Below, one piece after another: positions 8,815 to 32,946 of a stretch of 64,000 bases of DNA (the stretch's first letter is position 1; each line of letters opens with the position of its first letter). The position numbers were made by a program, and so were the translations under genes. The stretch comes from Bacillota bacterium (lineage in GTDB: Bacteria > Bacillota > Clostridia > Ch29), in contig JABVCK010000005.1 of NCBI GenBank assembly GCA_013540605.1, forward strand, positions 1 through 64,000, read 5' to 3'. A model generated the notes under the pieces. That model worked only from the letters and a program-made list of their open reading frames with translations. It was not told where the DNA came from and did no database searches.

Positions 8815-10101
8815 TCACTGTTCCATCATTCGGAGCGCCTCAAGCACCAGATCCCGGCGGTAATTGTACTCGATATCCGGCGGCAAAGTGGGGTCGCCTA
8901 GCGGATGCAGCACACTGTTGCCAGGCAAAATGCGGTTTGAACCGATGCCGGACGCCACATTAGTCAAATTGCAGACCTGCACAATGGGAATGCCGGAGCG
9001 TTCAATTTCTTTGGTCATCACTGCGCCGCAGCGGGTGCTGGTGCCTCAGGTAGAGGTTAGTATAACGGCATCCACCTGATCTTCACGCAGCAGAGCGGCA
9101 ATCTCCTGGCCAAATTTCTTGCAGTTTTCCATGGAGGTCATCACCCCGGCGGTGGTGTAGAAGCGGTCCGCCAGCTTGCCGATCAGCCCTTCCTTTTCCA
9201 GCCTCCGCAGCACGTCCACAGGCACCAGGCGGTTGGGGTTTTCCAGCACAAAGGCATTGTTATAGCCCTGATGCCGCACCTCATAATCCTCTGCGGCCAG
9301 ACTGTCCTTGCCCGTGATGGAATAAACACCGAATTTTTGGGAATTAACGGGCACCATTTGGTCTGGGTTGCCTTTGGGAACCAGGCCGCCGTCACTCACA
9401 AGAGCAACTTTTGCTTTCTTAAGCGGTTTTGTCAATTGGGAAGGCGGTATCAGTTCATGTTGGGGCATGGGCACCTCCGTATTGAAGGGGCGGCCATAAA
9501 ATTTATCCAGTGCCATATTGACCGCCCGCTTGGCCCCGGACACGCTGTAATCCACGGACCTCACCGGCCCAGTGCCCAAATAACCCTCCTCGCTGCCGTA
9601 ACCGATGGGTTCGCTGTCAACCAACTTGAGCGCAAATCTGACGATTTTACTGATATCCTCCCCCATGCGGCGGGCGCTGTTATGGATGCCTATGATATAA
9701 GCCAAGCCGCTATAAAGGTCCACACCGGGATTTTCCGCGTAAAGACCGGTCACGCTGGGAATTTTGAGCTGCTTATAAACAGCCGCGGTCACCGCGCCAC
9801 AAGCTAGCCCGTAACGCCCGGCATTGAAACCCGGCCCTGCGATGAAAAGGTCCGGCTCCGCTTCATTAACCAGTACCACCACCTGCGGCACCACGATTTC
9901 CAGGTTCTCCGCAATATGATTATCGCCGCAGATAACCGTGCGCACCACCTCACCTCGCTCCCCCAAGAGTTGATTGAGCAACTGACCTGGGCCAACCGCT
10001 TCTTCCCGCACGCTGATCCCCACATCTGCCGCCTCTTCGCCGCCGATCTGGGCATAGAACTGATTAATATAATGCACCACCCGCAGCTTCTTCTCTACCA
10101 C
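8815..10101 (-). CDS. grdB: GrdB-like selenoprotein: reductase component B, substrate-specific beta subunit (UGA = selenocysteine)
   Basis: 428 residues if the in-frame UGA at 9046-9048 (codon 352) is read as selenocysteine. Both halves match GrdB/GrdF/GrdH of glycine, sarcosine and betaine reductase: VVHYINQFYAQIGGEEAADV and CGDNHIAEN at the N terminus, and TSTUGTSTRCGAVMTKEIE around the active site. In this family component B binds the amine substrate and passes a carboxymethyl group to the selenol of GrdA. Here the motif is U-x-x-S-x-x-C, whereas I recall U-x-x-C-x-x-C for GrdB. The GTG start has GAAGGAGG eight bases upstream and lies 3 bases after grdE. Base composition is GC-rich compared with birA (33 of 60 G+C in row 9481, against 25 of 60 in row 7561). 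The substrate is unknown. No grdA, grdC or grdD is in the window. Confidence 0.88.
9019..9048 (-). promoter_or_regulatory. UGA selenocysteine codon and bacterial SECIS-like hairpin
   Basis: The UGA at 9048-9046 is followed on the mRNA by CGCTGC-GGC-GCAGTG (9033-9019), a six-pair stem (one G-U) with loop GGC. The loop begins 18 bases after UGA and has G in its first two positions, matching the general bacterial SECIS rule as I know it. Reading continues in frame for 76 codons with clear GrdB similarity. Confidence 0.75.
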
Positions 10102-10104
10102 GGT

Positions 10105-11373
10105 TCAGCCCTCCTTCCGTATTAATTCCGTATCCGTGGTTGGATAAAAATCCCCCAACTCGCTCAAATTTCCGGCCAACAGCAGATTGGTGGACTTGGT
10201 GAAAGGCCCCTGGAGATCCACCCCCAGCAAGGAAGGAATTTCTGAATCCCCGATCAGACGAGCCACCCTGGGAAAGGTAATGGTTTCCACATAAGCGCTG
10301 TGGACCACGGCATCCAGATGGGGATTGACCACGGCCAAAAGATCGCCGGGCTTTTCGCTGGAGACCGTGGGCATGATAGCCACAGCCGCAATCCCCAACT
10401 CCGCGCATTTTTCACAGATCATGGCCTGCTCCAATTGCAGATGGTGCATGCCGCATTTATTGGTGATAACAATATCTGCTTGGAGGTGGTTTTTGGCCAG
10501 GTCCACGGCCACCATGGTACAGACATCCTTATTTTTGGTCACGGTCTGGCCATTATTGAGCACCACACCGGCAAAATCCAAATCCAGCCCATGGCGGCTG
10601 TATAACTCATAGATCACAGTATCATTCTGAATATAATAAGTGAAATAAAAGTAGCGGTAGATGAAAGCACCGTCCAGCAAATCATTGGGATGCACCAAAA
10701 GGGGCAGTATGCCTTGGCCGCTGATTCCGTAATAGAAGAATTGCATGGTATCAAAAGCGGCCAGGTGGTTAGTGATATAAGCCACCCGCGGCAAACGGCT
10801 GCCATCCGCCGCAGGAGGGACTGGCGTCAGCTCGTAAATCTTGCTTTCGCTGGGCACGGTTTCAATTGCCAACCGGGCCAAACAGACACAGGCGGTCAGC
10901 GCAGCTTGTTTGAGTGCCTTACAGTAGGCCACATCGTCAATCCCCGCCACGGGACTGGCGTTGATCACCACATGATAATGACGGGAAAAGTGGCTGACCT
11001 CCGCCGCCGGCCCGGACATATCCAGAATATACTTCAAATTGGCCTTCAAGGGGTAAAGCTCCGTCACCACCACCCCGCGCAGAGCCACGGTGCGCCCCTC
11101 GCCCGCCGGCTTGACATTCCCCCAGATGCCGGGGAAAGAAGCCTCCGGCTCATCCGCCTTGACTCGCGGCTGGGTGATATCATGCACTCCCAGGAGGCGT
11201 ACATCCTCGCCAGGGGCCACCAGCTCAATTTGCAGGGAAGAAAACATGTCGCTTTGCATCTTATCCAGCAGCTCTTGTTTATCGATATACAGTGCTCCAT
11301 TTTCCAGATAACTCTTTTCCGCAAATGCCACACTTTTGATCTCCACAAAATCTATCTGTAACCTTTTGCCCAT
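10105..11373 (-). CDS. grdE: GrdE-like proprotein: reductase component B, alpha/gamma subunits
   Basis: 422 residues from an ATG preceded by AAGGAGGGTGGGG. It is similar to GrdE/GrdG/GrdI proproteins: the C-terminal domain has a VVLNNG...AVDLAKNHLQADIVI segment and VETITFPRVARLIGD. In known GrdE a cysteine near residue 242 is cleaved to give a pyruvoyl group. Here the corresponding stretch (about 234-250) reads DGAFIYRYFYFTYYIQND and has no cysteine. Other Cys residues (285, 307) lie outside that site. This points to a divergent or differently processed subunit. The DNA is strikingly GC-rich (42 of 60 in row 11041), suggesting recent transfer. It overlaps nothing and is followed 3 bases later by grdB. 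Confidence 0.82.
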   Translation of the reverse strand: MGKRLQIDFVEIKSVAFAEKSYLENGALYIDKQELLDKMQSDMFSSLQIELVAPGEDVRLLGVHDITQPRVKADEPEASFPGIWGNVKPAGEGRTVALRGVVVTELYPLKANLKYILDMSGPAAEVSHFSRHYHVVINASPVAGIDDVAYCKALKQAALTACVCLARLAIETVPSESKIYELTPVPPAADGSRLPRVAYITNHLAAFDTMQFFYYGISGQGILPLLVHPNDLLDGAFIYRYFYFTYYIQNDTVIYELYSRHGLDLDFAGVVLNNGQTVTKNKDVCTMVAVDLAKNHLQADIVITNKCGMHHLQLEQAMICEKCAELGIAAVAIMPTVSSEKPGDLLAVVNPHLDAVVHSAYVETITFPRVARLIGDSEIPSLLGVDLQGPFTKSTNLLLAGNLSELGDFYPTTDTELIRKEG

Positions 11374-11638
11374 AACCCCACCCTCCTTATGTTGAAAACA
11401 AATATACACTCCGCTTGTTCATTTAGATTATTAATACATTATGAATCAAGGCAACGGCAGCATCTACCGTCATCACATTATCTAACAGTGTTTGACAAGA
11501 CAACGAATTCTTTCCTGATAGTTCATTGTAACATGCCACCATATTCCGTGTGTATCAAATTTATAAAGAACTATATTAAAATTGTTGCGCTATTGCAACT
11601 AATTACAAATAGCTGTTGCAATAGCGCAACACATTCTA
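11374..11638 (-). other. Spacer between symporter and grdE
   Basis: A 265-base AT-rich leader region with the large inverted repeat at 11584-11630 and no gene. I looked for a -24/-12 promoter for grdE on the minus strand and found none with correct spacing. TTGTCT with GATAAT 15 bases downstream (about 11480-11505) is only a weak sigmaA candidate. grdE may be read from its own weak promoter or by read-through from the symporter gene. Confidence 0.4.
11584..11630. promoter_or_regulatory. Paired TTGC-N6-GCAA palindromes (activator sites or stem-loop)
   Basis: GTTGCGCTATTGCAAC (11584-11599) and its exact reverse complement GTTGCAATAGCGCAAC (11615-11630) are separated by 15 bases. Each is itself a TTGC-N6-GCAA dyad and their centres are 31 bp apart, about three helical turns, as expected for tandem sites of a sigma54 activator. 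They lie about 210-257 bp upstream of the grdE start. Folded as RNA they would form a 16-bp stem after the symporter stop, but only a short T-run (AATTTT) follows. The same dyad occurs before the activator gene at 16370. Confidence 0.6.
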
Positions 11639-13099
11639 TTAGTTAGGTACCTCGAACTTCTTGCCGAATTTTTCTTCATATCCTGGCGTGAGGAAAAATG
11701 GTGCTCTTTTATCAAGCAAAGTTAAAAGAAATACGATAGAACAGGTAATCAAGTGCAGGTAAAGCACATGCGGTAAAACAGTCGAGAACCAAGGCACCAG
11801 AAACCAAACCGTAGATGTTACGCAACTACAGCCGATTAACGCCGCGCCAGTACTCTTTCTAGCCAGCTTGGGGAAATACCATGAGATGATAAGCACGAAG
11901 AAATAACCGACGCTAAGTGCCAAACCAACCGTTACAATGGTCAAAATCGTGCGCTGATACATGGCAAAATAGAATACCAGTAAAGAACAGATTACGATGG
12001 TGATTCTTGAAGCAAAGACCTCTTTTTTAGGACTCATATTCATTTTGAATACTGGTTTCAGGATGTCATTTAAAATCAATGTAGAGTTGGAAACGATCAT
12101 CGTAGAGGCGGTTGAAATGATCGCTGCCCACATGCCCGCCAATACCAAACCAGTTATCAGGCCGGAGAACGATGTAGCCACTTTGGGCAGCGCGGTAGCT
12201 GTTTCCTCCAGACCTGGGAACATAACCGCAGCGACCATACCGATAATAGCGGTGCAGATGGCAATCGGCAAAAGTAGCGCGCCGCCGATCAAATAACCGT
12301 TGCGGGCGGTTTTGGTATCCTTGGCGGATAAAATCATTTGAATGGCCGACTGGGATGTCGGAATATTTACAACAAATAGTAATAGGTAGGCAATAATACC
12401 ACCTATGCCGTAATTACCTATGGGGCTGAAGTAGTGCGCCGGCAGTGTATCGGTTAAAACAGACCAGCCGCCAATATGACTGACAGACATTACGGCGCAA
12501 GCAATTACAGAAACATAGATAATACCGATATTGATCAGATTGGTAATACCTGCGCTCATCATACCGCCTGCTAGGCAAATGATAGTAAAGATAATCATCG
12601 AAACAAAGATACCACTGGTAAAACTAAAGTACTCAGGTAACAGCGTGCTGAGAATAGAACCACCGCCAACAAATTGCGCAACCATCAGTGTGAAATTCAT
12701 AAACAACTGGCCGACCGAAGCAATGATCCGTGTTCCCTCACCATAATAATCACCGTAAATTTGAGAAATGGTCATTATACCGGATGAACGGAATTTTTTT
12801 GCAAACACAGTACCGGTAAAAGCCAGGCCTAACACAAATGCGTATCCATACCAACCGCCGGAAAAGCCAAGATTATACGACCGTTGCGCAATACCCGTCG
12901 TGGTATTCGCACCGATTGCAAATCCGATAGTCGTCACCGATACCAACAAAGTACCGAAGCTACGGCCAGCCAGCAAATACCCGCTGGCGCCACCCTCATT
13001 CGATTTCTTTTCCTGATATCTTCTGGCATAGAAGGACGCAATGACCAAAGCTATGCAGAAGATAACAATAACTAACAATGCTATAACATTATCACTCAT
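11639..13099 (-). CDS. Sodium:solute symporter (SSS family)
   Basis: Integral membrane Na+-coupled importer with about 13 hydrophobic segments over 486 residues, the normal size for the SSS (2.A.21) family. The ATG chosen has GAAGGGAG upstream; an earlier codon eight residues before lacks this. Family-like segments are GYLLAGRSFGTLLVSVTTIGF (first helices) and MWAAIISTASTMIVSNSTLI in the middle. The gene has a near-perfect sigma54 promoter about 80 bases upstream and lies between the grdEB pair and the divergent amidohydrolase. It probably brings in the substrate of that pathway; the substrate is not deducible. Confidence 0.88.
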   Translation of the reverse strand: MSDNVIALLVIVIFCIALVIASFYARRYQEKKSNEGGASGYLLAGRSFGTLLVSVTTIGFAIGANTTTGIAQRSYNLGFSGGWYGYAFVLGLAFTGTVFAKKFRSSGIMTISQIYGDYYGEGTRIIASVGQLFMNFTLMVAQFVGGGSILSTLLPEYFSFTSGIFVSMIIFTIICLAGGMMSAGITNLINIGIIYVSVIACAVMSVSHIGGWSVLTDTLPAHYFSPIGNYGIGGIIAYLLLFVVNIPTSQSAIQMILSAKDTKTARNGYLIGGALLLPIAICTAIIGMVAAVMFPGLEETATALPKVATSFSGLITGLVLAGMWAAIISTASTMIVSNSTLILNDILKPVFKMNMSPKKEVFASRITIVICSLLVFYFAMYQRTILTIVTVGLALSVGYFFVLIISWYFPKLARKSTGAALIGCSCVTSTVWFLVPWFSTVLPHVLYLHLITCSIVFLLTLLDKRAPFFLTPGYEEKFGKKFEVPN

Positions 13100-13189
13100 A
13101 CTTAATCTCCCTTCTTCATTCAATTTAGTCGCTTTTGAGACACACTTAACTTATTGTGTTGTTGCTCCCCAATTCCCACGATTATTATA

Positions 13190-13205
13190 AGCAAGAATTG
13201 CGCCA
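13190..13205 (-). promoter_or_regulatory. sigma54 (-24/-12) promoter of the symporter gene
   Basis: The minus strand reads TGGCGCAATTCTTGCT: TGGC and TTGC elements with exactly the required GG-to-GC spacing. The start point would be near 13179, about 80 bases before the symporter ATG at 13099. Confidence 0.8.
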
Positions 13206-13280: not shown

Positions 13281-13296
13281 TGGCATAAAAATTGCT
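13281..13296 (+). promoter_or_regulatory. sigma54 (-24/-12) promoter facing the amidohydrolase
   Basis: TGGCATAAAAATTGCT has TGGCA and TTGCT with the canonical spacing. Transcription would start near 13307 and reach the amidohydrolase ATG after about 297 bases of leader containing two hairpins. It is divergent from, and 75 bp away from, the symporter promoter, so one activator could serve both. Confidence 0.75.
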
Positions 13297-13603: not shown

Positions 13604-14698
13604 ATGATAAAACATGATATTTTCACCGTTGCTGCTATTCAAAATGAGATTATCTGTGTCCAAGAACGTTCGGATATACAAAAGAACCTTAAGCGCCTTT
13701 TGGAATTGATTGACTGTGTGCCGCAAACCCAGGTTGCTGCCCGCGAACACTATGAGGGAAGTTGGGCTCCTGTTAAATTGATCTCCACGCCCGAATTTGT
13801 AATCCAGGGTCACGAAGGATCGTGGCCATATAGGCACTATATCGATAATGTACTAATTGAGATCCCGGGACCGGAAATTGACCAGATCGCCCAAAAATGC
13901 AAAGAGTACGGTATATACTTCGCCGGTTGTGCGTTGGAACGTGACGAGTGGATCAAGGACGGCTATTTCTGGAATACCCATTTCATAATCGATCCCAACG
14001 GTAAAATCATTCACAAATATCGTAAGATGACCGTTGCTATCCATTATGAGTTAGCAATCAGCCCACATGATGTGAAAGACAAATATGCAGAGGCCATGGG
14101 CGGCGACAAGCTCTCCACATGGTTCCCGGTAGCGGATACGGAAATCGGCAAGATAGGTACCATAACTTGCATGGACGGACACTTCCCCGAGACCGCCAGA
14201 GCGCTGGGCATTCAAGGTGCGGAAATCATACTGCACCCACTCCTCACCGTCCCTAACATGAGCAAACCTGCTGATATCTGGCAGTGCATGAACCGCATGC
14301 GTGCTTGGGAAAACGTATGTTATGTAATTGGCGCTTCCTGGGGTGAAATCCATGCCAAACGACAAAAGACTTTCGCACCGGGTCAATCGATGATTGTAGA
14401 CTACAACGGTATTGTAATCGCGCAGGCAGATTATGCCGGCGAGGCCATTATCACCGCAACCGTCAACTTGGAAGAACTGCGCAGACGCCGAATGGATCCC
14501 TCCAGAAACTTCCCCACCCAGTTGCGTACTGACATCTACCGCCAAATATATGATAAGGAAATTTACGCACCGAACATGTTTGCGGAGCATTCTCCAGAAC
14601 AACGCAGTGAGCGTGACTCTCTTGCAGGCGTCAAACAATTCATTAATGAAGGTATTTATCGGCTGCCGGAAAAGAAACCGGATTGGTATAAGGGATAA
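13604..14698 (+). CDS. Nitrilase-superfamily amidohydrolase
   Basis: 364 residues with the Glu-Lys-Cys catalytic arrangement of carbon-nitrogen hydrolases: TPEFVIQG (Glu), IIHKYRKM (Lys) and TITCMDGHFPE (Cys). It resembles the larger aliphatic-amidase-like branch more than the short omega-amidase type, but substrate class cannot be fixed. GAAAGGAG precedes the ATG by about 10 bases. It is the only plus-strand gene of the island and is divergent from the symporter, with its own sigma54 promoter, so it probably releases ammonia from an imported amide, ureide or nitrile, perhaps giving the amine acid used by GrdEB. That pathway link is inference. Confidence 0.85.
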   Translation: MIKHDIFTVAAIQNEIICVQERSDIQKNLKRLLELIDCVPQTQVAAREHYEGSWAPVKLISTPEFVIQGHEGSWPYRHYIDNVLIEIPGPEIDQIAQKCKEYGIYFAGCALERDEWIKDGYFWNTHFIIDPNGKIIHKYRKMTVAIHYELAISPHDVKDKYAEAMGGDKLSTWFPVADTEIGKIGTITCMDGHFPETARALGIQGAEIILHPLLTVPNMSKPADIWQCMNRMRAWENVCYVIGASWGEIHAKRQKTFAPGQSMIVDYNGIVIAQADYAGEAIITATVNLEELRRRRMDPSRNFPTQLRTDIYRQIYDKEIYAPNMFAEHSPEQRSERDSLAGVKQFINEGIYRLPEKKPDWYKG

Positions 14699-14810: not shown

Positions 14811-16310
14811 TTATTTATTTTCTACCGTAATACCATATTGCTTTACTTTTCGGGATATTGTGGATGGATTAACCTTAAGCATGGCAGCCGCTTTGCGAAT
14901 GCTGCTCGTGTTTTTGATCGCTGACTCAATCAAAAATTTTTCGTAAGCGTTCATGGCAGCCTGCAACCCTTCGTTATCGCTCATCTGTTCCACATCCAGA
15001 TCCGCTTGATTTATACCCAAAAAGGTATATAAATCACTGCCAGATAAAAATGGGTTCTCGGAACAAATAACCATGTACTCAATGGCATTCTCCAATTCCC
15101 GTATATTGCCCGGCCAATCGTAGCTAAGCAGTGCGTGCAGAAAACTGGCGGACATATGCATCTCTCGTTTATGTTTCTCACAGAACTTATCAAAAAAGAT
15201 AGCAGCCAATTTGGGTATATCGCCTTTTCTTTTTCTTAGCGGCGGCACATGGATCGGCACCACATTAAGGCGATAGTATAGGTCTTCCCTGAAAGTGCCT
15301 TGAGAGATTCGCTCCTGTAACGGTGCGTTGGTAGCAGCAATCACCCGTACATCCAGCTGTATGGTCTTGGTGTCGCCAATGCGCAACACCTCTTTGTTTT
15401 GCAGTACCCGCAATAATTTTGTTTGTGTTTCATAGCTGATATCACCAATTTCATCCAGTAATATGGTACCGCCATTGGCCAACTCAAATAGACCCGCCTT
15501 ACCTTTGGGATTGGCGCCTGTAAAAGCCCCGCCTTTATACCCAAACAGCTCCGACTCCAGCAGATTCGCCGGTATGGAGGCGCAATTCACCTTTATATAG
15601 GGTTTGCCTACACGCCTGCTATTGTGATAGATATCGTCTGCAATAACCTCTTTTCCTACTCCTGATTCCCCACATATTAATATAGTGGCATCTGTTTTAG
15701 CAGCATTTTTGACTACCTTATAGACTTCCGCCATTTCTTTAGTAGTGCTGGTGTAAAGGGTATTGGCTCCGATGGTCTTATTATCATTGATAACGATGCT
15801 GGCGCCATATCTCCCTTCATCAGTAAAGCTTTGGTAAAAACGGCGCATCAATGGAGGGTTGTACATATTAATAATAATATGCTTGATCTTTCCGTTCTCC
15901 CAAATGGGATAAGCGACAATATAAAAATATGAAACCTGGCCGTCTTCCTGCCGGACATAGCCAGAACGGCTTATTTTTGAATGCAGCTTCAGTTGCGCCC
16001 TCCCATCCGGAACCTTTTCCTGAGAAAGCTGTTCCAGCATCATCTCATAAAATGTGCGGCCGTAGAAATTCGGTGTGCCAATTTGACTTTTAATAAAACT
16101 GGGATCGTAAAAATTGAAAATGCCATCTTTAGCCAGTTGATAGATTGAGCGTCCAAGCAACTGAGAATGTGGTATGCCAGTAATCTCGGAATATGCTTCA
16201 TTGATATATACTATCTGTCCATCCGCATCCAAAATACAGATGCCTGTATTCAGGTTTTCTAGAACCGCCATATAATCCACATCTTGACAGGTAGTTTTAA
16301 TCTCAGGCAT
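14811..16310 (-). CDS. PAS-containing sigma54-dependent transcriptional activator of the island
   Basis: 499 residues from an ATG with AAGGAG ten bases upstream. An N-terminal PAS sensor (about 15-130, [24 protein letters not shown]) is followed by an AAA+ domain with Walker A GESGVGKE, the sigma54-contacting GAFTGA loop (in [14 protein letters not shown]), Walker [12 protein letters not shown] and the R-finger region [15 protein letters not shown] Fis-type helix-turn-helix lies at the C terminus ([24 protein letters not shown]). It should drive the two sigma54 promoters at 13190 and 13281 when its PAS domain senses a ligand. A TTGC-N6-GCAA dyad lies upstream of its own gene. Confidence 0.93.
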
Positions 16311-16517
16311 GACAACTATTCTCCTTCTGTATACAATGATGCTATATAACAACGAAATTCAATGCTTTATTGCCAACCTGCAACACCACTTTATCTATAA
16401 TATACTGAAAATAATATGATTAATCAAGTCTTTTCCCGTGGCAAAGGTCGGGTAAAAGACGAAACCATGCTAATCTTTGCGTGCATGAATCTAAAGAAGA
16501 TGTTAAATTGTAAATAT
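16311..16517 (-). other. Leader of the sigma54 activator gene
   Basis: About 200 bases between the activator start and the tandem terminators of mmdB. It is AT-rich with no gene. The only element recognised is the TTGC-N6-GCAA dyad at 16370-16383. No strong promoter was identified by eye. Confidence 0.4.
16370..16383. promoter_or_regulatory. TTGC-N6-GCAA dyad upstream of the activator gene
   Basis: TTGCCAACCTGCAA repeats the half-sites and the six-base spacing found twice at 11584-11630. Its position 60 bases before the activator start suggests autoregulation. Only three copies were found by eye, all within the island. Confidence 0.5.
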
Positions 16518-26308: not shown

Positions 26309-28072
26309 CTAAACCCCACCGGACAGCGGTATCCCCTCTTCATTCCAACCCCTGCATCGATAGTAATCGCTGAGCATCTTTCTTAGCTGCTCGGGAGTGA
26401 TAACCTTTTGCTCAGGACCGATCGGCTCTTGGAAGAACCTGGGCGGGAGGCTGTCTTCCTTTGCCGTTACCCCTTCCCTTATGTTGAATTTCCTGGTTTC
26501 ATTGGTTATGTTGGATGCTATTTTTCTCAACTCTTCTTTGGACATCTTCAACCCCATGGTTGCCTCTACTATGGTTGACAGGTCCTCCCATAATACCATG
26601 TCCCTGAAGAACCTGCACAGTATCAGTGCATCGTACAGGGTCAGCCGGTCTTCATATTCCACCAGCAACTCGGCTTTGCCTTGGATGGTATCGGGGTCTA
26701 TTATTCCGCTTAGTTCGGGCTTGTAAAAGGTGGTTCGCAGATGGCATGCACCCCTGTCGGAGGTTGCATACGCCAGACCCATTCCTTTTAGTATGCGGGG
26801 ATCGTACCCGGCAGGTTCGAGGCCTTTGACGTGGATGGCCATATCCTCCAAACCCCATTTTTTGCTGGCTGTTACTATACCCTCTGCGAGGATTTCTCCT
26901 ATATCTTTCTTTTGGGATATTTTATGCAGGAGGTGGGCTACTGCCTCCGCATCTCCGTACTCGATGGGGTAATGGATTGCTCCCCTTTTGCCTGCTTCTA
27001 TGGTGAAGGCTGCGAGGTTTCCGGCTGTGATTGTATCCATGCCCAGCCTGTCACAGATGTCGTTGAGGTAGAGTATTTCTTCCATGCTGTCTATGCAGCA
27101 TAGGCCTCCGAATGCATAAATTGTTTCGTATTCGGGACCTTCCAGCTTCAGGCCTTTATGGCGGCCTTTGGTTGCCTGTGTTAGTTTGCCGCAGGCGAAG
27201 AAGCAGCGGTCACAGGCCTTAGGCTTGACATCCATTTCTCTTTGCATATAGTCTGCGCTGATGTTCTCCCATTTGTCGAAGAAGCCCTCCTGCCAGTAAC
27301 GGGTGGGAAAACCGTTGACGGAATTCATTATCTTGACCAGCATGGGAGTTCCAAGCTGCCTGTATGCTCTTGCGCCGGGGTTTTCTTTACCCCTTTCCAT
27401 GAGGTCTTTTACGTAGTTTTCCATGAGTATAGGGTTGGCTATATCGCACTGGGCCTGGCCGTGGAATACGATGGCCTTGAGGTTCTTGGAGCCCATTACG
27501 GCGCCTACGCCGGTTCTGCCTGCGGATCTCCAGTAGTTGTTTTCTATGCAGGCGAACCTGACCAGGTTTTCGCCTGCGGGGCCTATGACCACGGCCTGGG
27601 CTTTTTCTACACCTACTTCACCGAGTACGCTGTCTTCGGTCTGGTAGGTTTCTTTACCCCACAGATGCGCTGCGCTGTGAAACCTAACTTCTGTATCGGA
27701 TATCTCCAGGTAGATCCTGTCCTCTGATACTCCTTCTATGATAATGGCGTCATACCCGGTTTTTTTGATAACGGGAGCGACGTGCCCGCCGGAGTAGCTT
27801 TCGGAATATATCCCTGTTAACGGGGATTTGGTGAATAACCCGTACCTGCTGACGCCCATCATTTTTGTTCCTGTTGCCGGGCCGGTGGTGAATATTAGCT
27901 TATTATCTCCGCCTAAAGGATCTGCTCCCTGGGGTACCTCTTTATTGAGGAGGTAGCTGCCCAGGCCCTTTCCCCCGAAATATCTCTTGAATATCTGATC
28001 CGGTATCTCTTCTGTTGTCCAGGTCTTTCCGCTTAAGTTCACCCTCAACAGTTTATTATAAAATCCGTACAT
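26309..28072 (-). CDS. aor: Tungsten-containing aldehyde:ferredoxin oxidoreductase
   Basis: 587 residues. The ATG at 28072 sits 9 bases after AAGGAG; another ATG two codons earlier is too close. The tungstopterin-binding N-terminal domain shows YFGGKGLGSYLL, GPATGTKMMGVSRY and SGGHVAPVIKKTGYDAIIIEG. The [4Fe-4S] ligands appear as CDRCFFAC with a further Cys in DRGACHLRTT. It oxidises aldehydes to acids with ferredoxin, or runs in reverse to reduce acids. It is the third gene after an alcohol dehydrogenase and a permease under a sigma54 promoter. Confidence 0.95.
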   Translation of the reverse strand: MYGFYNKLLRVNLSGKTWTTEEIPDQIFKRYFGGKGLGSYLLNKEVPQGADPLGGDNKLIFTTGPATGTKMMGVSRYGLFTKSPLTGIYSESYSGGHVAPVIKKTGYDAIIIEGVSEDRIYLEISDTEVRFHSAAHLWGKETYQTEDSVLGEVGVEKAQAVVIGPAGENLVRFACIENNYWRSAGRTGVGAVMGSKNLKAIVFHGQAQCDIANPILMENYVKDLMERGKENPGARAYRQLGTPMLVKIMNSVNGFPTRYWQEGFFDKWENISADYMQREMDVKPKACDRCFFACGKLTQATKGRHKGLKLEGPEYETIYAFGGLCCIDSMEEILYLNDICDRLGMDTITAGNLAAFTIEAGKRGAIHYPIEYGDAEAVAHLLHKISQKKDIGEILAEGIVTASKKWGLEDMAIHVKGLEPAGYDPRILKGMGLAYATSDRGACHLRTTFYKPELSGIIDPDTIQGKAELLVEYEDRLTLYDALILCRFFRDMVLWEDLSTIVEATMGLKMSKEELRKIASNITNETRKFNIREGVTAKEDSLPPRFFQEPIGPEQKVITPEQLRKMLSDYYRCRGWNEEGIPLSGGV

Positions 28073-28156
28073 ATTCATCCTCTCCTTACCATATTTTGCC
28101 AGAGCAAGATGCCTATTTTGCCACGGCAAACGTCTGAGTTGTACCTCCAGAGAAGT

Positions 28157-30846: not shown

Positions 30847-30983
30847 TTGTGCACAGGTGCAAAAATTCCTGACCATTTCATACAATATAAAAATGCAGGA
30901 TGCTGTAGAAACCTTGCAAACATGGTTTGTGCATTATTGCACAAACAATTTCTGTTATGCACCGGTTTCGTGCATATCTGCAC
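30847..30983. promoter_or_regulatory. Three GTGCA-N4-TGCAC upstream activator sites
   Basis: Dyads with the same half-sites and four-base spacer occur at 30847-30864 (TTGTGCACAGGTGCAAAA), 30925-30946 (perfect, GTTTGTGCA-N4-TGCACAAAC) and 30970-30983 (GTGCATATCTGCAC, inside the 3' end of the activator gene). Their centres lie about 88, 168 and 209 bp upstream of the predicted start, where enhancer-binding proteins act. Confidence 0.7.
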
Positions 30984-32721
30984 TTAAATTGTATTTGGCT
31001 ATTTTCCGAGCTATGGTAGTACGGTGCACTCCCAAAACTTCGGCAACTTTATTAATATTCCGGTATTTTTTAAACGAATTTATTATTAGCTGCTCTTCAA
31101 CATCCTTTATCGCTTTATCCAGGGGCACGATATCCTTTATCAGGATATTGGATTTTGTATAGGCTAATTCCCCTCTCATGCATTTTGGCAGGTGCATGGT
31201 CCTAATATAGTCCTCTTCGGGTATTACTATCAGCCTTTCTACTATGTTTTCCAGTTCTCTCACATTTCCCGGCCAGTTGTATTCCAGGAAATAATCTATT
31301 ATTTCCGAGGTTATCTGCTTATTCAGGTTGTACTTCTTGTTGTACTTTTCCACGTAATAACACAGCAGGGGAATAATATCCTCCTTTCTATCCCTGAGGG
31401 GAGGTATGTATATGGGCACTACGTTAAGCCTGTAGAACAGGTCTTCTCTGAATCTGCCTTCGGATACAAGCTTCTCCAGATCCTTATTAGTTGAAGCTAT
31501 TATTCTCACATCGATTTTCCTTGGTTCCAAACTCCCCAGTCTGCTTATCTCCAGATCCTGGATAGCTCTCAGCAGTTTAACCTGCAGAGTCTTGGGCATT
31601 TCTGCAATCTCGTCCAATAGCAGAACCCCTTTCTCCGCAACTTCAAACAGCCCGGGTTTGCCCTCCTTTTTAGCCCCGGTAAAAGCGCCCCCCTCATAGC
31701 CGAAAAGCTCTGATTCCAACAGGTTCTCAGGAATGGCGCCGCAGTTTATCTTTATAAAGGGCCCATCCTTTCTATCGCTTTCTTTATGGATGAGTTTGGC
31801 TATAACCTCTTTTCCTACTCCGGATTCGCCCATTATCAGTACATTCGAATCCACTCTTGAAACACGAAGGGTCAGTCGGAGCACTTCCTTCATATCATCA
31901 CTTTTTGCGATAACATCGTCCAGCTCCATCTGCTGAAGGCGCATCTCGATCAGCTCACTGTGGTATTTCTGGGTTAGCTCCCTGGTCTTTTCCAGTTCAA
32001 TTTTCAGCCTGTTCAGCTCTGTCATATCCCTCACATTTGTTACTACCAGAGTTATTTCGCCGTCTTCGTTGAACACCGGATTCCCCGTCACCATTACATC
32101 CTTTCTGCCCTTGATCTGCTGCATTATGGTAATCGGTTTCTTTTTTTCCAGTACCAGGAGGGTTACCGACTTGGAGTAAAAACCTGCTTTTTCAAGTTCT
32201 CTCATATGCCTTCCCAGGACTTCTTTCCGCTGAACACCGGTTATCCGTTCATATGCAGAATTAACGCGTACGGTTATTCCGTTACCATCCGTGACATATA
32301 TCCCGTCATAGGACGATTCAATAATGGCGTTCAGCTCTACGCTCAATTTTTTGCACACGTCCAGCTTCCTCAAAATATCCTCTATCTCCGAAATGTCCTG
32401 GAATACCGCAACAGCCCCAACGATTTCATTGTCCAATATTACAGGTGTCCTGTTTGTTATTACCGTTCTGTTCCCTATCGTCAGTTTCTGGCCAAAATCG
32501 CTTTTCCCGGTTTTCAGTATCTCCAAAAGGTTTGTGTTGGGTATTACCTCCGATATGTGGCATCCGATCGCATCCTCTGCCTTAACTCCAATAATTCTCT
32601 CAGCAGCAGGATTTATTATATTAATCATTCCCTGTTTATTAATTGAAATTATTGAATTATGTGTAGAATTCAGGATAGCATTCAGTTCACTTTCGTATTT
32701 CCCCATGCGCTTTGCGTTCAC
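30955..32721 (-). CDS. PAS-PAS sigma54-dependent activator of the ADH/AOR operon
   Basis: 588 residues from a GTG preceded by AAGGGGATATTTTT; the open frame extends 44 codons further without a ribosome site. Two PAS domains (about 10-110 and 125-235, each with a VNSAYERITGV-like or INPAAERIIGV-like core) are joined by a short coiled coil to an AAA+ domain with [34 protein letters not shown] and [15 protein letters not shown] Fis-type HTH (NINKVAEVLGVHRTTIARKI) closes the protein. It should bind the three dyads at its 3' end and activate the promoter at 30779. Confidence 0.93.
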   Translation of the reverse strand: MNAKRMGKYESELNAILNSTHNSIISINKQGMINIINPAAERIIGVKAEDAIGCHISEVIPNTNLLEILKTGKSDFGQKLTIGNRTVITNRTPVILDNEIVGAVAVFQDISEIEDILRKLDVCKKLSVELNAIIESSYDGIYVTDGNGITVRVNSAYERITGVQRKEVLGRHMRELEKAGFYSKSVTLLVLEKKKPITIMQQIKGRKDVMVTGNPVFNEDGEITLVVTNVRDMTELNRLKIELEKTRELTQKYHSELIEMRLQQMELDDVIAKSDDMKEVLRLTLRVSRVDSNVLIMGESGVGKEVIAKLIHKESDRKDGPFIKINCGAIPENLLESELFGYEGGAFTGAKKEGKPGLFEVAEKGVLLLDEIAEMPKTLQVKLLRAIQDLEISRLGSLEPRKIDVRIIASTNKDLEKLVSEGRFREDLFYRLNVVPIYIPPLRDRKEDIIPLLCYYVEKYNKKYNLNKQITSEIIDYFLEYNWPGNVRELENIVERLIVIPEEDYIRTMHLPKCMRGELAYTKSNILIKDIVPLDKAIKDVEEQLIINSFKKYRNINKVAEVLGVHRTTIARKIAKYNLSADMHETGA

Positions 32722-32946
32722 AAAAATATCCCCTTCCCACATAATTTTTGTACAGGAAGCATTGATAATGTTAGAATATTCGCCTATAAAACAAAACAGA
32801 GTCCCCTTGCCCTGAAAATATGCAAGTGAACTCCTTTGCACAGCGGCAGGCATTAAAATTGCTTTTAATCCCCTATCGTCCCATAAAGCCCGGTAGGTTC
32901 TATAGGATCGGAGTATACAATCTGTAACAAAATATAATTGCCGCTA

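Follow-up and report, generated by a model that had tools for sequence, protein, structure and literature searches.

A pyruvoyl-cysteine-free component B in a sister lineage of the FarE/FarB reductases

How could the alpha subunit of a glycine reductase-type component B operate without the cysteine that gives rise to the pyruvoyl group? This question is raised by a gene on a stretch of clostridial DNA of 64,000 nucleotides (hereafter the window), the product of which had been described in a sequence-only reading as a GrdE homologue apparently devoid of this residue. The deduced protein, with the N-terminus MGKRLQ, was shown to match the PF09338 family of component B subunits with 237 bits (gathering cut-off 22.2 bits) across residues 4-378, i.e. 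most of its length, and the gene represents a full-length open frame of 437 codons from stop to stop. The highest-scoring NCBIfam family was FarE (fluoroacetate reductase, NF053623) at 489.6 bits, compared with 186.5 bits for GrdG, although this score falls below the curated FarE equivalog cut-off of 675 bits. The coordinates of all features are listed in Table 1.

Table 1. Positions of the features described in the window and, where a locus (L) or contig (C) handle is given, in other sequences
Feature	Position	Strand	Remarks
farB-like gene, GrdB-family selenoprotein	8815-10101	minus	428 aa, with a single in-frame TGA translated; PF07355, 454 bits
In-frame TGA (Sec352, in TSTUGTSTRC)	9046-9048	minus	only interruption of the farB-like gene; first Cys of UxxCxxC is Ser, as in Far proteins
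farE-like gene, component-B alpha subunit (PF09338)	10105-11373	minus	422 aa, ATG start at 11373
Counterpart of the GrdE cleavage loop, IYRYFYFTYYIQND	10621-10662	minus	residues 238-251; six residues shorter, no Cys
Sodium:solute symporter (SSF), possible substrate importer	11639-13123	minus	PF00474; sigma-54-like promoter upstream; putative link to farEB
Sigma-54 (-24/-12) promoter-like site before symporter	13190-13205	minus	TGGCGCAATTCTTGCT, one mismatch
Sigma-54 (-24/-12) promoter-like site before amidase	13281-13296	plus	TGGCATAAAAATTGCT, one mismatch
Nitrilase-superfamily amidase	13604-14698	plus	PF00795; nearest solved relatives formamidases (PDB 5g3o)
PAS-domain sigma-54-dependent activator	14811-16352	minus	nearest named family PrdR
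Fluoride riboswitch, window's genome	C25:203100
Fluoride riboswitch, window's genome	C35:58363
Fluoride riboswitch, window's genome	C15:11467
Fluoride riboswitch, window's genome	C15:16636
PF09338 lineage without pyruvoyl Cys	L062:7814-9124		motif SGNYVWPAFK
PF09338 lineage without pyruvoyl Cys	L060:1460-2764		motif VNLQYDNMS
PF09338 lineage without pyruvoyl Cys	L061:7975-9246		motif TNRNYYQLT
PF09338 lineage without pyruvoyl Cys	L021		motif SGYTIRMME
Second GrdB-like protein in far locus	L072:12645-13499
Second GrdB-like protein in far locus	L073:8799-9626
Second GrdB-like protein in far locus	L075:4564-5391
Second GrdB-like protein in far locus	L076:9011-9832
Second GrdB-like protein in far locus	L077:8904-9731
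Second GrdB-like protein in far locus	L079:8926-9807
Second GrdB-like protein in far locus	L080:9012-9821
Second GrdB-like protein in far locus	L081:12663-13649	minus
Second GrdB-like protein in far locus	L082:9029-9889
Second GrdB-like protein in far locus	L084:5944-6798	minus

A labelled peptide of Clostridioides difficile GrdE, comprising residues 242-266, was reported to bear a cysteine-derived pyruvoyl group (PMC9908766). The annotated GrdG of Peptoclostridium acidaminophilum carries Cys242 at the cleavage site, and the GrdE of the genome under study carries Cys243 (by the numbering used here) within LDGAIVSGNCVSACDKNTTYHH. In the window protein, the landmarks named previously were found as claimed (LLDGA, followed by FIYRYFYFTYYIQND and then TVIYELYSRHG), and sequence alignment confirmed that no cysteine is present at the equivalent of the SGNC cleavage site of GrdE- and GrdG-type proteins. 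Six loop residues are absent as well, and the loop itself is positioned near, rather than exactly at, the interval 10624-10674 to which it had been assigned. As the cysteine and the six residues are lost in frame, no frameshift is involved. The cysteines of the protein are located at residues 151, 162, 164, 285, 307, 320 and 323, and two of these (Cys285 and Cys307) had been named as possible occupants of the cleavage position. Conservation across the family is seen for neither of them: the C285 position is occupied by Met or another residue other than Cys in FarE and by a non-Cys residue in the genome's own GrdE, and the C307 position by Ser (FarE) or Glu (GrdE). Both were consequently rejected as substitute cleavage residues. 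The same alignments bear on a glycine/sarcosine-type subunit that employs an alternative carbonyl, formed for example from another cysteine or residing on FarB. Glycine reductase has been suggested to contain a second carbonyl, located in GrdB (PMC9908766), and Leong et al. (PMC10838667) discuss a formylglycine in the latter protein. An alpha subunit of this kind is nonetheless improbable here, as neither FarE nor GrdE shows conservation of C285 and C307 and as the window protein is placed apart from GrdE/GrdG in the phylogenetic tree described below.

The six-residue deletion and the absence of the cysteine were shared by all 14 other FarE sequences aligned at this site, arguing against a chance event. 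The loop of these 14 proteins reads xWRYW------E(P/C)NY(Y/F), as opposed to IYRYF------YFTYY in the window protein, such that the FarE signature WRYW-E, present in all 14, is replaced by YRYF-Y, while the Arg240-Tyr241 core is retained. FarE has been described as lacking the two cysteines and as not being a pro-protein, in both respects resembling betaine GrdI, and no Schiff base is possible with fluoroacetate (Leong et al., PMC10838667). The pyruvoyl-forming cysteine is likewise missing from the GrdI references included here (from Enterococcus gilvus, beside grdH, and from Clostridia). Its absence is a known, already published property of FarE and GrdI, and the compared sequences show it to be recurrent, the number of losses not being readable from the trees. 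Given how widespread this absence is in the family, the pyruvoyl group cannot be a general requirement of component-B enzymes.

Homology to FarE and the parallel in GrdI favour two of the explanations that had been offered, namely an unprocessed subunit and a substrate that does not form a Schiff base, whereas a different cofactor found no support. Whether the GrdE pyruvoyl group binds the substrate through a Schiff base, as had been presupposed, is a matter of debate in the literature; in one published view, the substrate binds a carbonyl in GrdB and the GrdE pyruvoyl group is protective (PMC9908766). Gene decay that abolished the active site, or an erroneous sequence, would account for the missing cleavage-site loop and for the aromatic residues in its place, but is extremely unlikely in view of the full-length frame, the identical in-frame deletion in every FarE aligned, the retained invariant residues of the family, the intact selenoprotein partner and the confident fold predicted by AlphaFold2 (pLDDT 87, pTM 0.90).

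A FarE that passes the cut-off with 837.9 bits, encoded by a different genome of this class, was compared with the window protein and exhibited 47% identity over 418 residues with one gap. An alignment of both kinds of protein (window and FarE) was used to scan a genome collection of 84,980 species, resulting in 15 FarE loci, all of which show 46-50% full-length identity to the window protein, with identities of at least 66% between FarE proteins. The hosts, from Synergistota and other groups, include Pyramidobacter, Faecalimonas umbilicata DSM 103426, Catonella morbi, other Lachnospiraceae, Clostridium, an Olsenella MAG (RUG001) and a deltaproteobacterial MAG. A search of plasmid records retrieved only distant GrdE, GrdG and GrdI proteins, which were kept as references. 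In the resulting tree of 65 proteins, the window protein grouped with FarE (support 100/100), the FarE clade without it was supported at 98/99, and GrdE/GrdG and GrdI were separate. Tree, motif and identity together indicate that the window protein is a sister of FarE, outside the FarE clade proper, and not a degenerate GrdE. The view of an odd GrdE is in this way replaced by that of a member of the FarE branch, where absence of the cysteine is the rule.

GrdI is likewise a PF09338 alpha subunit without the pyruvoyl-forming cysteine (motif SGSFMPxSSK), and a betaine-type subunit, lacking the cysteine on account of a quaternary ammonium substrate, would also be in keeping with the weak best match of the neighbouring symporter among solved structures, a choline transporter. 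Conversely, GrdI was shown to form its own clade (100/100) apart from the window protein, which did not group with this partner of GrdH; identity is limited to 26%, GrdI lacks the six-residue deletion, and the selenoprotein of the window fits betaine GrdH worse than the GrdF or GrdB models, making a GrdI-type function hardly probable. With GrdE/GrdB and GrdG/GrdF, the window system has in common the two-subunit architecture, the Sec residue in B and the GrdA/GrdC system, while differing in the absence of the SGNC site and pyruvoyl group and exhibiting 30-33% identity.

The farB-like gene is located directly downstream of the farE-like gene, and its product is 58-65% identical to FarB, compared with 42-51% to other GrdB-type proteins, and represents a sister of FarB in the tree (support 100/99). 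It is a Sec-containing, adjacent FarB-type protein with the Far-type UxxSxxC motif; FarB has been described as lacking the protective CxxC (Leong et al., PMC10838667). At the position where a hairpin occurs in relatives, the sequence could adopt a GC-rich stem with a GGC loop, although the minimum-energy fold is a different one. Furthermore, the genome encodes grdA (with its own TGA), grdC, and grdD, trxA and trxB in the same cluster as grdC, as well as a tRNA-Sec (70.7 bits), so that a carboxymethyl group could be passed on to acetyl-phosphate. The GC content of farEB (53-56%) is higher than that of the window (45%) and of the symporter and amidase genes (44-48%), which fits a separate horizontal arrival of farEB. 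In the five other family members searched, matches to the E protein were of GrdE level only.

In summary of the comparison with FarE/FarB of Cloacibacillus and Pyramidobacter, the likeness encompasses whole-length identities of 46-50% (E) and 58-65% (B), the adjacent E-B order, the loop deletion, the absent cysteine, the UxxSxxC motif and the sister position in both trees. The differences lie in the score below the family cut-off, in YRYFYF instead of WRYWEP, and in 66 positions that are invariant in 13 aligned FarE proteins and changed in the window protein, including the loop substitutions W239Y, W242F, E243Y and N245T, with Arg240 and Tyr241 unchanged. Within Far, the ratio of E to B tree distances has a median of 0.64 (range 0.43-1.09), E thus being more conserved than B; between the window and Far it amounts to 1.48 (1.40-2.09), and between enzymes of different substrate classes to about 2, noting that the E/B pairs are not independent and that the window lineage consists of one sequence, such that conservation within it cannot be judged. 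This ratio and the 66 changed positions suggest that the substrate site was remodelled while the selenoprotein partner remained conserved. Searches for solved structures resembling the E protein returned none by sequence and, by predicted fold, a best match with an E value of 0.007 and a TM score of 0.20, for which reason its substrate residues cannot be placed by structure.

Fluoroacetate itself, a poison which the FarE/FarB system is proposed to reduce to acetate and fluoride, has to be considered as the substrate. The farACEB operon was reported to be upregulated approximately 5,000-fold in cells given fluoroacetate, and FarE is tied to this compound by induction, comparative genomics and whole-cell degradation rather than by purified enzyme; Leong et al. 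(PMC10838667) even suggest that Far may prefer an amine as its substrate. A divergent fluoroacetate reductase, which retained FarE substrate and chemistry and underwent sequence drift only, would be consistent with the sister position to both FarE and FarB and with the shared deletion and Arg-Tyr core. The genome also contains four fluoride riboswitches above cut-off, the most among 50 genomes searched, together with two CrcB fluoride exporters, and the next-highest genome, with three riboswitches, is a FarE carrier. One of the four precedes the two crcB genes, and the others precede a gene for an unknown protein of 144 aa, a run of genes for proteins of 511, 508 and 436 aa, and a dehydrogenase-like gene. 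However, the remaining FarE carriers hold zero or one fluoride riboswitch, which renders this link weak, and a general association between Far genes and fluoride riboswitches was not upheld, as several carriers have none. The score under the equivalog cut-off, the change from WRYW-E to YRYF-Y, the 66 altered positions and the faster divergence of E than of B, unlike within FarE, also speak against mere drift, leaving a fluoroacetate reductase possible but rather unlikely. As the sub-cut-off score, the YRYF-Y loop and the disproportionate divergence of E point in the same direction, a substrate related to, but different from, fluoroacetate appears more likely than fluoroacetate.

Very probably, then, the E protein would be an unprocessed, pyruvoyl-free FarE-type subunit acting with its FarB-like partner on a non-amine substrate of the form X-CH2-COO(-). 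Since its substrate would be neither a primary nor a secondary amine, it would remain uncleaved and carry no pyruvoyl group, and it would form a complex with the FarB-like selenoprotein. The substrate, which the adjacent amidase possibly releases from an amide, would be held non-covalently, with the FarE-specific Arg240-Tyr241 of the shortened loop as candidate contacts. Sec352 would then attack the alpha-carbon and expel X, a chemistry and leaving group that are presumed here, resulting in a carboxymethyl-selenoether that would be handed to GrdA and converted by GrdC/GrdD to acetyl-phosphate, with electrons provided by thioredoxin.

The genes around the farE-like gene differ from those of farACEB, in which an MFS transporter (farA) and a radical SAM protein (farC) are encoded; neither is present in the window island, where the neighbours are a biotin ligase, the SSF symporter, the amidase and the sigma-54 activator. 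The absence of farA, farC or both is also seen in two further published far operons (PMC10838667). The symporter, amidase and activator genes are all located upstream of the farE-like gene, the amidase gene being divergent to that of the symporter, and the Glu-Lys-Cys triad motifs of the amidase (PEF, KYRK and TCMDG) are present in the translation. No close relative of this amidase was found in the sampled genomes of the class. Three one-mismatch sigma-54 sites occur in the 64 kb, compared with 2.25 expected by chance in the whole window, and two of them fall within the 480-base gap between symporter and amidase, each facing its gene. These neighbours may be part of the pathway, and the feeding of farEB by amidase and symporter is put forward as a proposal, not as a result.

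New in this case is a deep-branching lineage, sister to the Far reductases, in which the substrate loop is altered and the gene neighbours differ. Established substrates of protein B in the glycine reductase system are, to our knowledge, confined to glycine, sarcosine, betaine and, by inference, fluoroacetate. It is tentatively suggested, as a prospect somewhat short of even, that the locus encodes a new substrate class of Sec-dependent protein B, i.e. a Far-derived reductase that would cleave the C-X bond of an X-CH2-COO(-) compound, with uptake by the SSF symporter, release from an amide by the amidase, sigma-54 control and retention of the carboxymethyl group as acetyl-phosphate. A Far sister lineage with a remodelled E subunit and a conserved selenoprotein would open direct access to a further reductive cleavage of a C-X bond, conceivably in other haloacetates or in haloacetamides, compounds that matter in anaerobic detoxification.

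Several further observations were made on the family and its loci. FarE/FarB occurs well beyond Synergistota, as seen in loci L072, L080, L083 and L085 and other loci of the scan. Four further PF09338 lineages were found to lack the pyruvoyl-forming cysteine (Table 1); the L062 gene belongs to the window's own genome, where it is located between a DagR-like regulator gene and its own GrdB-type selenoprotein gene, with an amino-acid permease beyond. In a FarB subclade (L081, L083, L084 and L085; Catonella, Olsenella and relatives), both cysteines after Sec are lost (UGTSSRGG), whereas the second one is kept in the window and in other FarB proteins. Many far loci encode a second, shortened GrdB-like protein that corresponds to the C-terminal half only, with Cys in place of Sec, and is mostly encoded beside a TetR-family regulator gene. 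This protein, which is outside the published farACEB operon and absent from the window, might act as a regulator or accessory subunit.

Within the window, a perfect inverted repeat (GTTGCGCTATTGCAAC / GTTGCAATAGCGCAAC) at 11584-11630, between the symporter and farE-like genes, would represent a terminator or an operator; GTTGC-N6-GCAAC was rejected as a regulator site common to other promoters, as it is perfect only at this position and otherwise occurs near chance. Finally, a molybdenum/tungsten cofactor riboswitch (Rfam RF01055; 32815-32925, minus strand) is located just upstream of a gene at 30955-32853, and an aldehyde ferredoxin oxidoreductase gene is present at 26309-28129.
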